33,441 nt of DNA. It comes from a virus. The position numbers and the translations under genes were made by a program. Shown piece after piece: positions 7,597-17,841 of this stretch. Position 1 is the stretch's first letter; each line of letters begins with the position of its first letter. Under the pieces are notes generated by a model that was given only the letters and a program-made list of their open reading frames with translations, did not search any database and was not told where the DNA came from. The DNA lies in IMG/VR virus record IMGVR_UViG_3300010379_000025, positions 1 to 33,441 of that record; one strand, given 5' to 3'.

Positions 7597-7683
7597 GTGG
7601 CCAGTGGCCAGTGGCCAGTGGCCAGCCGGAGAAGGCAGGCTTCGCCTGCCGGGGTTTTTACTGGCCACTGGCCACCAGCCACT
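7597..7683. repeat. Family C inverted repeat (TGGCCAG type)
   Basis: Four tandem GTGGCCA units (7597-7624) face ACTGGCCACTGGCCACC (7660 on), so the arms can pair around the terminator hairpin at 7634-7659. Related pieces lie at about 4966-4982, 11813-11840, 15571-15600 (inside the portal gene) and 23616-23645. Confidence 0.75.
7634..7659 (+). terminator. Rho-independent terminator candidate
   Basis: Perfect 7-bp stem GGCAGGC/GCCTGCC with a TTC loop, then GGGGTTTTT. It lies between the virion protein gene (7063) and the LPxE repeat gene (7689), inside the family C inverted repeat. Confidence 0.55.
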
Positions 7684-7688
7684 GCTCC

Positions 7689-9203
7689 ATGGTTACTCAC
7701 GCGATCGCTCTGCGACTCTTCACCTTGGCCGTGTCGGCGGCTTCCACGCTGCCGATCGACTGCCTGGCGTCGGTCGCTTCACACTCGACCATGTCGATCG
7801 AAGCGAAGGCCTCCCTCGCGCAGACGAAAACGCTGCCCGTCGAAAGCAATCTCTCGGTCGAGTTTGGGGCGACGCTGCCGGTCGAGAGTCTGCTGACGGT
7901 GTCGCCAGCGCTGGCGGTGCTCCCGATCGAGAGTGGCGGCGGCGTGCGGTTGCTGGTCGTGTTGCCGGTCGAGTTCGGGCAGACGACGGTCGCCGTATCG
8001 TCGGCGCCCGTCTTTGTCATCGAATGGCTCCTTTCGGCCGCGGCGAGTCAAACGGCACCGACACTGCCCGTGGAGTGGCTGGGGGTCGCCGACATCGTGC
8101 GGGCCGACGTGCTGCCGATCGAATGGTTTTTGACCGTCGCGCACCGGACGGCCGTGCTGTCGACCGAATGGCTGCTCTCCGCGCCGACAAAACCTGCGTT
8201 ATCGGTCGAGTGGAGCGGCACGCTGACAGCCCTCTCGATCGCCCGCGTGCTGCCCGTCGAATGGTTGTCCCACGCCGCGAGTCGCGCGATCGCGCTGCCG
8301 ATCGAAACGCGGGCGTCGACAAGCTCAGCCCAGGGGCTGGCGATTGAAGCGCTCTCGGCGGTCGCGCGCGTTGCCGGCTTGCCCGTGGAAACCGTTTTGC
8401 GGCTCGGCTCGCTCGCGGCATTACCAATCGAAACCAGGCGATCGCTGGCGTCAACCCTTGCGCTGCCAATCGACGCACGCGGACAACTGGCGGTCTTTTC
8501 CGCCCTCCCGATCGAAACGCGGGCTTCGACAAGCTCAGCCCAGGGGCTGCCGGTCGAAACGCGGGCTTCGACAGGCTCAGCCCAGGGGCTGCCGGTCGAG
8601 TGGGGGTCGAAGGCGATTGTCCAGGCTTCGTCCCTGCCGATCGAGTGGCGGGCTTCGACAAGCTCAGCCCAGGGGCTGCCGGTCGAATCGCGGCTGCAGC
8701 TCGCCGCGGCAAAGACGCTGCCGGTTGAAACGCGGGCTTCGACAGGCTCAGCCCAGGGGCTTCCGATCGAAACGCGGCTGCAACTGGCCGGGATCGTCGC
8801 ACTGCCGATCGAAACGCGGCTGCAGCTCGCCGCGGCCCAAAACGTGCCGGCCGAGTGGCGCGCTTCGACAGGCTCAGCCCAGGGGCTGCCGATCGAAACG
8901 CGGCTGCAGCTCGCCGCGGCCAAGACGTTGCCGATCGAGACGCGATCGCAATTGGCGATCGTTCCGGGGCTGCCGGTGGTCTGGTATCTGCAGGTCGCGC
9001 CGCTGGTCGCCACGCTGCCCGTGGAGTTGCTGCGGGGCGTGATCAACGCGGGGGCCGTGCTCCCCGTGGAATGGTTTGGCGCTGCGATGCCCGACGTTTC
9101 GGGCGGCGTCTTCGTGCTCCCCCAGCGGGGCTCGGTCTTCGCGCTCGATTCCCGCGGCACGGTGTTCGTCCTCGGCAAGCGAGGAACCGTGTTCCGCATC
9201 TAG
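7689..9203 (+). CDS. LPxE tandem-repeat protein, probable fibrous virion protein
   Basis: 504 aa from ATG 7689; an earlier in-frame ATG lies in the upstream repeat. Almost the whole protein consists of about 30 degenerate units of 13-18 residues, each marked by LP[IV]E[TWS], for example KTLPVETRASTGSAQG and ALPIETRLQLA. Such regular short units suggest a beta-solenoid or fibre. Six units carry RASTSSAQG or RASTGSAQG, encoded by a REP-like DNA repeat (see 8311-8888). The C-terminus ends in three short units of the form SVFALDSRG / TVFVLGKRG / TVFRI. There is no signal peptide or enzyme motif. A tail or spike role is inferred from the beta-rich neighbours. Confidence 0.65.
   Translation: MVTHAIALRLFTLAVSAASTLPIDCLASVASHSTMSIEAKASLAQTKTLPVESNLSVEFGATLPVESLLTVSPALAVLPIESGGGVRLLVVLPVEFGQTTVAVSSAPVFVIEWLLSAAASQTAPTLPVEWLGVADIVRADVLPIEWFLTVAHRTAVLSTEWLLSAPTKPALSVEWSGTLTALSIARVLPVEWLSHAASRAIALPIETRASTSSAQGLAIEALSAVARVAGLPVETVLRLGSLAALPIETRRSLASTLALPIDARGQLAVFSALPIETRASTSSAQGLPVETRASTGSAQGLPVEWGSKAIVQASSLPIEWRASTSSAQGLPVESRLQLAAAKTLPVETRASTGSAQGLPIETRLQLAGIVALPIETRLQLAAAQNVPAEWRASTGSAQGLPIETRLQLAAAKTLPIETRSQLAIVPGLPVVWYLQVAPLVATLPVELLRGVINAGAVLPVEWFGAAMPDVSGGVFVLPQRGSVFALDSRGTVFVLGKRGTVFRI
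8311..8888. repeat. Six in-frame REP-like units inside the LPxE gene
   Basis: Copies of about 29 nt containing TTCGACAAGCTCAGCC or TTCGACAGGCTCAGCC, then CAGGGG, begin at 8311, 8521, 8563, 8650, 8734 and 8860. The pair at 8521 and 8563 is spaced exactly 42 nt (14 codons). All lie in one frame and encode RAST[SG]SAQGL. They share the TTCGAC-AGCTCAG core with family E. Confidence 0.85.
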
Positions 9204-14378: not shown

Positions 14379-16109
14379 GTGGGATTTCTCAGTCGAATCT
14401 TGAGCGGCGGCGGCCCGTCGCGGCGCGCGGGGCTGCCCGGGCCGCTCGATCCCTATTGGTACAGCGACGTCGGCACGCGCTCCGGGTCGGGCGTGCTGGT
14501 GACGCCCGAGACGGCGCTCCGCCTGATCGACGTCTATGCCTGCGTCCGCGTGATCGCCGAGACGATGGGGAGCATTCCCAACCTGCTCTACCGCAACCTG
14601 GGCCAGGACGAGGAAGGGAACCCGCGGAAAGAGCTGGCGACCGATCAGGGCCTGTATCAGGTCCTGAAGAGCCGGCCGAACAACTGGCAGACGTCGATCG
14701 AGTTCGTGGAGATGATGACGGGGCACGTCTGCCTCCGCGGCAACGCCTACGGCGAAAAGGTCTGGGGATCCCGCGGCGCCGTCGACCAGGTGATTCCCCT
14801 GCATCCCGCCCGGATGCAGGTCCAGCAGCTCGACAACGGCCAGCTCCGCTACGTCTACCGCCGGCCGGACGGCAAGGAAGTCACCTACCGGCAAGACGAA
14901 ATCTTCCACCTCCGCGGCTTCACCAGCGACGGGATGATCGGCATGAATCCGGTCCAGGTCGCCCGCGAGGGGATCGGCCTGGCGATTGCCACCGAACGCT
15001 TTGGCGCCCGCGTGATGCACAACAACGCCGTCCCCAACGGCGTGGTTTCTCATCCTGCCACATTAAGTGACAAGGCCTACGCCCGGCTCCGCGCGTCGAT
15101 CCGCGATCAGACCGGCGGCGTCGAGAAGGCGGGCAGTTTTCTGATCCTCGAAGAAGGGATGAAGTGGCAGCAGATCGGGATGAAGCCCGAGGACCTGCAG
15201 TTCCTCGAGACGCGGCAGATGAATTTGCGGCAGATCGCCCGCCTGTTCCGCGTGCCGCTGCACATGCTGGGCGACCTCGAAGCGGGTGCGTCCTACGCCT
15301 CGGTCGAGCAGATGGGCCAGGAGTTTATCACCTACACGCTCTTGCCCTGGATGGTCCGCTGGGAGCAGGCGATTGCCAGGGACCTGATCGCCGACCCGGA
15401 GACCTACTTTTGCGAATTCGATGTCGACCGCCTGGCCCGCGGCGACATGGCCTCGCGCTACGCAGCCTATTCGGTCGCCCGGCAATCCGAATGGCTCAGC
15501 GTGAACGAAATCCGCGGCAAGGAAAACCTCAACCCCATCGAAGGGGGCGACGAGCATTCCAATCCAAATGTGGCTAGTGGCCAGGGGCCAGTGCCCGGTA
15601 AAGACGGACCGCCGGCTCCCCCGGCAGCTCCGCCGGTCCCCGGCAAGCCGGGAAAGAAAAAGCCCAAGCCGGACAAAAAGAAAAAGAAAGACGACGAGGA
15701 GAAACCGGACGGGGAAGCGTCGGCGAGGGGCGAGTCCGAGCCGCCAGCCTGGATGCAGATCCTGGCGAATGACGCTGCGGACCGCATCGCGACGGCTGAG
15801 TTGCGTGAAACCGAAAAACACGCCTCGAAAGCGGCCGCCGACTTGTCCCGCTGGAGCGCTTGGTCCCGCGATTTCTTTGTCGGCCATCTGTTCTATGTGA
15901 CCAAGACCGTGTTGCCGCTTTGCGAGGCGGCCGGAATGGAAGACCCGAGGCAGACCGCCGAGGCGATCGCCGGCGCGATCTGCGACCGCCGAGCGAAGCT
16001 GCTCGCCGATGCCGCGGATCCGGCAGCGTTGATTTCGTCGACCTGGTCGGACCGCGGCCAGGAGTGTGGGGAGCTGATCCTCGTCCATCTGGTGGCGCGA
16101 AAGAATTAA
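14379..16109 (+). CDS. HK97-type portal protein with C-terminal extension
   Basis: 576 aa from GTG 14379 after AGGAGCG. Residues 1-400 follow the Phage_portal family: MGFLSRIL, TPETALRLIDVYACVRVIAE, GNAYGEKV, DEIFHLRGFTSDG, and the helical FRVPLHMLGDLEAGASYASV. Portals form the dodecameric vertex through which DNA enters and to which connector and tail attach. Residues about 405-455 are a Pro/Lys-rich linker that includes a family C repeat (15571-15600). The last 120 residues form an extra helical domain seen in some longer portals. It is followed by a convergent gene with a 4-nt overlap. Confidence 0.92.
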   Translation: MGFLSRILSGGGPSRRAGLPGPLDPYWYSDVGTRSGSGVLVTPETALRLIDVYACVRVIAETMGSIPNLLYRNLGQDEEGNPRKELATDQGLYQVLKSRPNNWQTSIEFVEMMTGHVCLRGNAYGEKVWGSRGAVDQVIPLHPARMQVQQLDNGQLRYVYRRPDGKEVTYRQDEIFHLRGFTSDGMIGMNPVQVAREGIGLAIATERFGARVMHNNAVPNGVVSHPATLSDKAYARLRASIRDQTGGVEKAGSFLILEEGMKWQQIGMKPEDLQFLETRQMNLRQIARLFRVPLHMLGDLEAGASYASVEQMGQEFITYTLLPWMVRWEQAIARDLIADPETYFCEFDVDRLARGDMASRYAAYSVARQSEWLSVNEIRGKENLNPIEGGDEHSNPNVASGQGPVPGKDGPPAPPAAPPVPGKPGKKKPKPDKKKKKDDEEKPDGEASARGESEPPAWMQILANDAADRIATAELRETEKHASKAAADLSRWSAWSRDFFVGHLFYVTKTVLPLCEAAGMEDPRQTAEAIAGAICDRRAKLLADAADPAALISSTWSDRGQECGELILVHLVARKN

Positions 16110-16381
16110 ACCTTTTTGCCGAAAAAGAACTCAGCCATCCGCTCGCGCTCGGTACGTGCAGCCGGCCGAAACGCCTCGTGCGATTGCTTGAGGGCCGCGA
16201 TCTCCCCTTTGAGCCATTCGGCGGCCATGGCGTCGGGAAGATATTCTTTGCCCCTGAGGTCGAGAAGTTTGTAGCAACCCTTCCATCGGAGCGTGGCGCA
16301 GGTGTTGCCCAATGGCTCGAACGAAAACTGCAAGATGCAATCGGCCTCGCGGAGGACGCGATTCGTTTCGCTTTCCTTCAT
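16106..16381 (-). CDS. Reverse-strand hypothetical protein, possible moron
   Basis: 91 aa, ATG at 16381 with AGAAGGA about 12 nt upstream. It is transcribed against all surrounding head genes and its stop overlaps the portal stop by 4 nt. The protein looks genuine: FSFEPLGNTCATLRWKGCYK, then a helical C-terminus with PAARTERERMAEFFFGKK. No family recognised. Insertion between portal and protease, its own start region and the opposite strand fit a moron-type cargo gene. A mobile-element-like structure begins 24 nt upstream of it. Confidence 0.55.
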   Translation of the reverse strand: MKESETNRVLREADCILQFSFEPLGNTCATLRWKGCYKLLDLRGKEYLPDAMAAEWLKGEIAALKQSHEAFRPAARTERERMAEFFFGKKV

Positions 16382-16412
16382 GACCGGACCCGATCCTTCT
16401 TATCCTTCTTAT

Positions 16413-16837
16413 GGCACTGACATACTTGGCTCAGAACAGGATATGACACATGGATATTCCGCGCCACCTCATTCCTCCTGCTCCGCCTCGCGAATTCGAC
16501 TCCGGCGAGACCTTCGATGTTTACTGGAAGCGTGAAGCTCCCCGTTGGGCAGACTACTGGGGCGGATGCCTGAATCGCGGCGAAACGCTGATTCCAACCC
16601 CATACGGTTTTTGCCGAGATTACTCGCATCGAACGGAATACGCATGGGGAGCTTTGTTTACAGGGCTTGTCATCGGGCTGTTGGTCGGGCTCGTTTTTGC
16701 AGGGATCGTCGTGTTCGATCGTCCGTCTACGCGGCCACCTGCGAATACGCTTCAGCATGCAATTGAGGATGTTGACCGCACGCATTTCGGTGACGGCATT
16801 TGAAACATGAGCGTTCTGAGCCAAGTATGTCAGTGCC
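16413..16837. mobile_element. Mini-transposon-like element with perfect TIRs and 8-bp duplication
   Basis: The 25-bp left end (16413-16437, starting GGCACTGACATACTTGG) is the exact reverse complement of 16813-16837. The 8-bp direct repeat CTTCTTAT flanks it precisely at 16405-16412 and 16838-16845. The interior is almost entirely one ORF (16450-16803); there is no transposase. These are the hallmarks of a non-autonomous element mobilised in trans. IS6, IS1595, ISL3 and IS66 families make 8-bp duplications, but I cannot assign the family. Confidence 0.85.
16450..16803 (+). CDS. Single-span membrane protein carried by the mini-element
   Basis: 117 aa. ATG 16450 lies 13 nt inside the left terminal repeat and the stop 9 nt before the right one. 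Residues 1-65 are hydrophilic with aromatic and Pro-rich patches (MDIPRHLIPPAPPREFDSG). Residues about 66-90 (WGALFTGLVIGLLVGLVFAGIVVF) form one membrane helix. A short tail follows. Base composition is less GC-rich than neighbouring phage genes. No family recognised. Being packed exactly between the repeats suggests that it travels with the element. Confidence 0.6.
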   Translation: MDIPRHLIPPAPPREFDSGETFDVYWKREAPRWADYWGGCLNRGETLIPTPYGFCRDYSHRTEYAWGALFTGLVIGLLVGLVFAGIVVFDRPSTRPPANTLQHAIEDVDRTHFGDGI

Positions 16838-16849
16838 CTTCTTATCCCC

Positions 16850-16932: not shown

Positions 16933-17841
16933 ATGAAATATGAACGAATCCTGCGGGCCCTCAGCGCGACGCCCTGGATGATTCTGCCGGCGAAGCTGGA
17001 GGAGATCTTCGGCGTGGTCGAAGCTCGGGCCGCCGGCGTGACGCTCTCGGCCCGCGAGCTCAAACACTTTGCCGCGCGGAAGAAGAAATATACGGGGGTC
17101 AACGGCAACGTGGCCGTGCTGCCCGTCTACGGAACGATCTCGCAACGCTTCGGGCTGCTCACCGCCAGCGGGGGGACCTCAACCGACGAGTTCTGCCGGG
17201 CGTTCGACCAGGCCCTCGCCGATGCGTCGATTGGCGCCATCCTGGCCGACTTCGACACGCCGGGCGGCTCGGTTTTCGGAGTGCAGGAGGCGTTCAACAA
17301 AGTCTTCGCCGCGCGGGGTCAAAAGCCGCTGGTGGCGTCCGTCAACTCCCAGGCCGCCTCGGCGGGCTACTATCTGGCGTGCGCCTTCGACGAGATCGTG
17401 GTCACCCCCTCGGGGGAGCTCGGTTCGGTGGGCGTGATCAGCGCCCACGTCGATTATTCCGCGCAGAATGCAGCCGACGGCGTCAAGGTGACCTACATTA
17501 CGGCCGGGCAATACAAGGCCGAGATGAACCCTGACAGCCCGCTGTCGGACGAGGCGAAGGCCTACGAGCAGTCGGTCATCGACGCCTACTATGCCGCGTT
17601 CGTCGACAGCGTGGCCCAGGGCCGCGGCGTGACGACCCGCGCGGTGAAGGCCGACTTCGGCCAGGGCCGCTGCGTGCTGGCCGCCGACGCGGTCGAAAAG
17701 AAGATGGCAGACCGGGTCGCCCCCTTCAGCCAGGTCCTCGCCGAGCTCAACGCGGCCGCCAAACCGCCGGGAACCGGCCGCCGCCCTGTTTCCGGGGCTC
17801 AGGTCGCGTTATTGCGGAAGAAGCTCGCCTTGCGGAAGTAG
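16933..17841 (+). CDS. S49-family capsid maturation protease
   Basis: 302 aa from ATG 16933. The S49 (SppA-like) fold is clear: GNVAVLPVYGTI (about 58-69), FDTPGGSVFG (107-116), catalytic Ser143 in NSQAASAGYY, and Lys195 in TAGQYKAEMNP. There is no signal peptide, as expected for a phage head protease. Located between portal and major capsid, it would cleave the capsid delta domain or scaffold during head maturation. The C-terminal 40 residues are basic and Pro-rich. Confidence 0.88.
   Translation: MKYERILRALSATPWMILPAKLEEIFGVVEARAAGVTLSARELKHFAARKKKYTGVNGNVAVLPVYGTISQRFGLLTASGGTSTDEFCRAFDQALADASIGAILADFDTPGGSVFGVQEAFNKVFAARGQKPLVASVNSQAASAGYYLACAFDEIVVTPSGELGSVGVISAHVDYSAQNAADGVKVTYITAGQYKAEMNPDSPLSDEAKAYEQSVIDAYYAAFVDSVAQGRGVTTRAVKADFGQGRCVLAADAVEKKMADRVAPFSQVLAELNAAAKPPGTGRRPVSGAQVALLRKKLALRK

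Follow-up and report, generated by a model that had tools for sequence, protein, structure and literature searches.

Genomic Setting of the Insertion

The window, that is, the whole stretch of DNA analyzed here, is a virus record from IMG/VR, 33,441 bases long. It carries an HK97-type head module composed of terminase, portal, S49 head protease and capsid genes, which identifies it as an HK97-type prophage or phage. The window terminase shares 43% identity with its counterpart in the planctomycete MAG SJ810 and 46% with those of viral contigs, and a planctomycete host for this phage is plausible. No tRNA and no Rfam match were found in the window.

A 425-bp insertion lies between the portal gene, which ends at 16109, and the gene encoding the S49 protease, which starts at 16933 (Table 1). 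The single open reading frame (ORF) within it, referred to here as the cargo, runs in the direction of the head genes. An initial annotation made from the sequence had described the element as inserted in a head operon. This holds for the neighborhood, with portal on one side and protease on the other, but the site itself is an intergenic stretch and no head gene is interrupted. In the related phages L004 and L049, the protease gene follows the portal gene almost directly with no insert, and the extra DNA can therefore be regarded as an addition in the window phage. Neither relative has a gene at this site.

Other features of the window were observed in passing. An antisense ORF of 91 aa (16106-16381, minus strand), which matches no known family, occupies the space between portal and protease and extends into the end of the portal gene; the transposon lies approximately 24 nt upstream of its start. 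A 530-aa ORF with LPIE/LPVE repeats (7611-9203) contains the 27-bp unit CGGGCTTCGACARGCTCAGCCCAGGGG six times in frame (window 8310-8885). These units encode RAST(S/G)SAQG, and CGGGCTTCGACARGCTCAGCCCAGGGG looks like a short dispersed repeat that was inserted repeatedly into a coding gene. A separate family of dispersed repeats, CGAATGACGAAGGAA / GCACGAAATCCGAATGACGAA and their relatives, is found at many intergenic sites (e.g., 801, 4573, 10151, 11049 and 19784), with core 14-mers present in 8-11 copies.

Anatomy of the Element

Table 1. Features of the 425-bp element and its flanks (window positions).
Feature	Position	Strand	Basis
Complete 425-bp element, very probably a non-autonomous IS1595-family mobile insertion cassette	16413..16837	+	Ends and shared end motif
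Left terminal inverted repeat (TIR), GGCACTGACATACTTGGCTCAGAAC	16413..16437	+	0 mismatches to family motif GGYANTGACWTACTTGNNNCA
Right TIR, perfect complement of left TIR	16813..16837	-	End comparison
Target-site duplication CTTCTTAT, left copy	16405..16412	.	Exact 8-bp match, abuts TIR
Target-site duplication CTTCTTAT, right copy	16838..16845	.	Exact 8-bp match, abuts TIR
AGGA, Shine-Dalgarno-like, 8 nt 5' of ATG	16438..16441	+	Count of Shine-Dalgarno-like 4-mers
Cargo ORF P0001, 117 aa plus stop	16450..16803	+	ORF listing

The two TIRs are complementary at 25/25 positions, and shuffled sequences gave no match to the TIR with up to 3 mismatches allowed. The perfect 25-bp TIRs and the exactly abutting 8-bp direct repeat that had been reported for this locus were both borne out, the latter as CTTCTTAT at both ends. 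A third CTTCTTAT is present at 16396-16403, next to the left duplication, so the target was a small local tandem; the 8/8 match abutting both ends stands despite this third copy. The ORF had also been described correctly in its length of 117 aa and in its stop, 9 nt before the right TIR, but its start lies 12 nt inward of the left TIR rather than 13. The ORF makes up 83% of the length of the element, and a 169-aa open antisense frame also crosses it. No IS1595 transposase is encoded in the window. The element is thus a derivative and not an autonomous member of the IS1595 family.

The Cargo Protein

Judged from its predicted topology, the cargo most likely encodes a protein that crosses the membrane once. 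Residues 1 to ~65 are rich in proline and aromatic residues. They are followed by one predicted transmembrane helix (residues ~68-90; hydropathy peak of 2.65 over 19 residues) and a short C-terminal tail. No credible homologue was found among viral contigs, phages, plasmids and 170 genomes, and profile searches gave no family match. An Rv0361 C-terminal domain was considered and rejected; its NCBIfam score was 15 bits against a cut-off of 37, and the match was attributed to the transmembrane helix only. As a guess, the protein might act as an accessory factor of the phage or the lysogen.

Searches for Further Copies

The initial annotation had proposed a search for multiple copies with different 8-bp flanks. 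No second 425-bp unit was found in any collection searched, the collections being ones that may omit very near relatives of the window. Specifically, no second copy exists in the 33-kb record itself, where the TIR and the protein do not recur either; the 425-bp unit, the TIR and the protein have no match in INPHARED phages or PLSDB plasmids; IMG/VR has no other match to the exact 20-base TIR or to the cargo protein; and the 22-base window end retrieved nothing from GTDB genome contigs. In 170 genomes from the order of MAG SJ810, BLAST with the 425-bp unit returned only short chance matches. With 3 mismatches allowed, a TIR 22-mer had 7 matches, spread over 5-6 of 398 genomes from the class of MAG SJ810, and the reversed control was matched at least as often. 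Of these 7 chance-level matches, two fall in a coding gene. A transposase with exactly the 25-bp end of the window was likewise not found in the collections searched.

Transposase-Bearing Relatives With the Same Ends

Relatives were recovered with a shortened end. The window end was reduced to 16 bases, GGCACTGACATACTTG, which retrieved 16 viral loci, 3 of them complete elements. The motif GGYANTGACWTACTTGNNNCA, which both window ends fit with 0 mismatches, was built from the complete GGCACTGACATACTTG-ended elements and then used for wider retrieval. Overall, an end motif of 16-21 bases yielded 20-odd related elements, located in phage contigs of IMG/VR or in genomes of planctomycetes. Complete IMG/VR elements with exact 8-bp duplications include L118, L123, L165, L184, L215, L282, L283, L285, L286, L290:676-2203, L291 and L292. 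Two-sided end pairs with 5 mismatches and no duplication were treated as chance.

Several of the related elements encode IS1595 transposases, as defined by the models NF033547 and PF12762, with scores of 134-190 bits against the NCBIfam NF033547 cut-off of 75. The 2,020-bp element L123 (duplication AAAGCGAT) has a transposase matching both NF033547 (168 bits, cut-off 75) and PF12762, and L285 and L291 are transposase-bearing with 8/8 duplications. In planctomycete genomes, L323-L325 are complete elements of 2.48-2.57 kb with transposases, ends of this kind and duplications that match at 8/8 positions. The nearest end found belongs to the phage-borne L249, whose IS1595 transposase scores 190 bits and whose end is identical to the window TIR at 23/25 positions. 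This end adjoins a terminase gene, and the left end is lost at the contig edge. L249 is also the only viral contig besides the window in which the inner end sequence CTCAGAAC follows the core. Transposases 51-64% identical to that of L249 are encoded in planctomycete genomes (170 genomes, order of MAG SJ810), those of L323-L325 among them; those of plasmids reach ~42% identity at most among the matches listed. In the same 170 genomes, the chromosomal end motif was found at 12 ends, compared to 0 in the reversed control. Transposase-bearing relatives with matching ends, the other support that the initial annotation had asked for, are thus at hand in L123, L285, L291 and L323-L325, as well as in L249 with its 23/25 identical end. 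The TIR type of the window and its 8-bp duplication are common to transposase-bearing IS1595 elements, which places the window element in this family.

Gene-less elements share these ends as well. In phage contigs they are represented by L286 (276 bp) and L284:532-707 (176 bp). In MAG SJ810, GGYGATTACATACTTGACTCATCA ends occur at four places (L326-L329), three of which are gene-less elements of ~190-200 bp; L327 and L329, both ~200 bp, have exact 8-bp duplications. These ~200-bp elements are chromosomal IS1595 MITEs.

Two phage contigs carry several of these elements at once. IMGVR_UViG_3300037242_000090 (61.9 kb; L184 and L292) has an IS1595 transposase (L184:1098-2039), a 508-bp Dam-like cassette (L184:6120-6627), a 1,063-bp element containing two small ORFs (target-site duplication AAATGGTT) and further solo ends. 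IMGVR_UViG_3300050016_000060 (L290 and L250) contains a nest of several IS1595-ended elements, in which L290:676-2203 (target-site duplication ATCGGCTC) appears to be inserted in the transposase gene of the larger L250:5419-8947 (target-site duplication CAAATGAA).

A Series of One-Gene Elements

The design of the window element was found in ten other elements with the same ends, no transposase and one ORF running nearly from end to end (Table 2). The initial annotation had called such an element unusual; the element is not unique in kind, being one of a series with these ends.

Table 2. One-gene elements with the same ends as the window element.
Element	Length	Cargo	Target-site duplication
L118	1,319 bp	D12 adenine methyltransferase	Exact
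L122	821 bp	C5-cytosine methyltransferase	No clear duplication
L215	1,342 bp	C5-cytosine methyltransferase	Exact
L290:2719-4328	1,610 bp	C5-cytosine methyltransferase	No clear duplication
L184	508 bp	Dam-like methyltransferase, just below Pfam cut-off	Exact
L282, L283	Within 274-353 bp	Orphan ORFs, within 67-98 aa	Exact
L287, L288, L289	Within 274-353 bp	Orphan ORFs, within 67-98 aa	No clear duplication

The cargo of the ten relatives is divided evenly between DNA methyltransferases (five) and orphan proteins of 67-98 aa (five), the latter with no known relatives in family and homologue searches. In each of the eleven elements, that of the window included, 74-97% of the sequence is taken up by the longest ORF. 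A Shine-Dalgarno-like 4-mer precedes 7/11 cargo starts, that of the window among them, against a background of 17% (P ~7e-4), and in several elements the stop codon is located inside the inner part of the terminal repeat. L118, L122 and L215 have arms of ~45-60 bp that are 89-96% identical around very different methyltransferases (one adenine and two diverged cytosine methyltransferases). From these sequences, an exchange of cargo between constant arms is suggested.

Interpretation and Alternative Explanations

The window element has insertion sequence ends, no transposase and one unrelated ORF, which are the marks of a mobile insertion cassette (MIC). Since ten further elements of the same design share its ends and likewise have no transposase, we consider it very probable that the 425 bp are a non-autonomous MIC of the IS1595 family, in which one unrelated gene has replaced the transposase. 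The central claim of the initial annotation, that this is a complete transposon, non-autonomous and centered on one small ORF, is supported by the TIRs, the duplication, the missing transposase and the transposase-bearing relatives. Several observations count against the MIC reading, namely the lack of a second copy and of an exact-end transposase, the missing left end of L249, and the relatives with no clear duplication (L122, L287, L288, L289 and L290:2719-4328). The ORF adds to these, as it has no homologue, its length alone makes it no more than moderately improbable in shuffled sequence (see below) and its third-position GC is 0.55 vs. 0.83-0.87 in the phage genes.

These properties of the ORF bear on the alternative that survives best, in which the window element is a gene-less IS1595 MITE and the 117-aa ORF an accident of composition. 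The same ends are found on elements that have no gene (L286, L284:532-707, L327 and L329), the antisense frame is open too, and an ORF of at least 117 aa was obtained in 4-5% of dinucleotide shuffles when any start codon was accepted. However, ATG-only ORFs of this length appeared in 1% of shuffles, AGGA is positioned 8 nt before the ATG, GC by codon position (0.64/0.50/0.55) is coding-like, and the layout is repeated in relatives, five of which carry recognizable DNA methyltransferases. The MITE explanation is therefore judged unlikely, and the cargo ORF is supported, though not proven, as a real gene.

It is far less probable that the 425 bp represent an ancestral phage gene flanked by inverted repeats of another origin, e.g., regulatory hairpins; location in the head operon and a direction shared with the neighbors would fit, but the 8-bp duplication is exact, the ends are common to independent transposons, and the relatives L004 and L049 lack a gene at this site. 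A different family that produces 8-bp duplications, e.g., IS6/IS26, was considered as the source of the ends because IS26 ends begin GGCACTG, as does the window element with its 8-bp duplication, and was dropped as highly improbable given that only transposases of the IS1595 type were found within elements with the longer motif.

Under the MIC reading, the IS1595 transposase would be supplied by an autonomous element, carried either by the host chromosome or by a co-infecting phage, and, as the anatomy of the element implies, would recognize both window ends in trans. L249 and L323-L325 are the candidate cognate transposons. The target would be cut with an 8-bp stagger and the cassette inserted, and the landing site between portal and protease would be harmless. 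The cargo would then be translated mainly from head-gene read-through transcripts, via its own ribosome-binding site. One phage contig (L184) has both a transposase gene and a one-gene cassette.

A broader reading is put forward tentatively, as a possibility that we hold to be somewhat doubtful. IS1595 ends might constitute a minimal vector for phage accessory genes, with single genes, each with its own ribosome-binding site, moved singly by shared transposases, and with cargo that can be re-loaded; some ends would supply the stop codon. The window cassette would be one such vector with a membrane-protein cargo. The phages concerned are apparently those of planctomycetes and perhaps of other hosts. 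Re-loading is suggested by L118, L122 and L215 because their arms are alike (~89-96%) and their methyltransferases different.

Several implications follow. The orphan 425-bp insertion can now be linked with a family of transposases, and phage genes of very small size are seen to move singly as transposons. The presence of single accessory genes between conserved head genes might be explained in this way. With the end motif, accessory genes can be sought in uncultured phages, and it can be tested whether methyltransferases, which may counter restriction, and small orphans are selected cargo.

Comparison With Known Systems

Both MICs and IS1595 passenger genes were already known. The open-access literature searched contained no account of phage-borne one-gene cassettes of the IS1595 type or of a compact series of them; this does not prove absence.

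Phage morons and integron gene cassettes are single accessory genes, placed between core genes or swapped as units. The window element resembles them as a single accessory gene added between core genes. Morons and integron cassettes move by illegitimate recombination and attC recombination, respectively, whereas the window element was moved by TIR transposition with target duplication. Like MITEs, it is short, TIR-bounded and non-autonomous. Unlike MITEs, it has an ORF over 83% of its length, and gene-less MITEs with the same ends exist separately (L284:532-707, L286, L327 and L329).

Within the IS1595 family, members with passenger genes (tIS) have been described (Siguier et al., 2009, cited in PMC3129680 and PMC5704250). 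The window element agrees with this family in its terminal sequence type, its 8-bp duplication and the occurrence of passenger genes. It differs from transposase-bearing IS1595 elements in having no transposase and a single gene that fills the element. The prototype of the MICs is MIC231 of Bacillus cereus, which has IS231 ends (De Palmenaer et al., 2004, cited in PMC3129680). As in MIC231, insertion sequence ends enclose a non-transposase gene, and activation by a cognate transposase in trans is expected. The ends of MIC231 are those of IS231, a member of the IS4 family; the window series, in contrast, has IS1595 ends, resides in phage genomes and is very compact. In several of its members, the ribosome-binding site and the stop codon adjoin the ends or lie within them.
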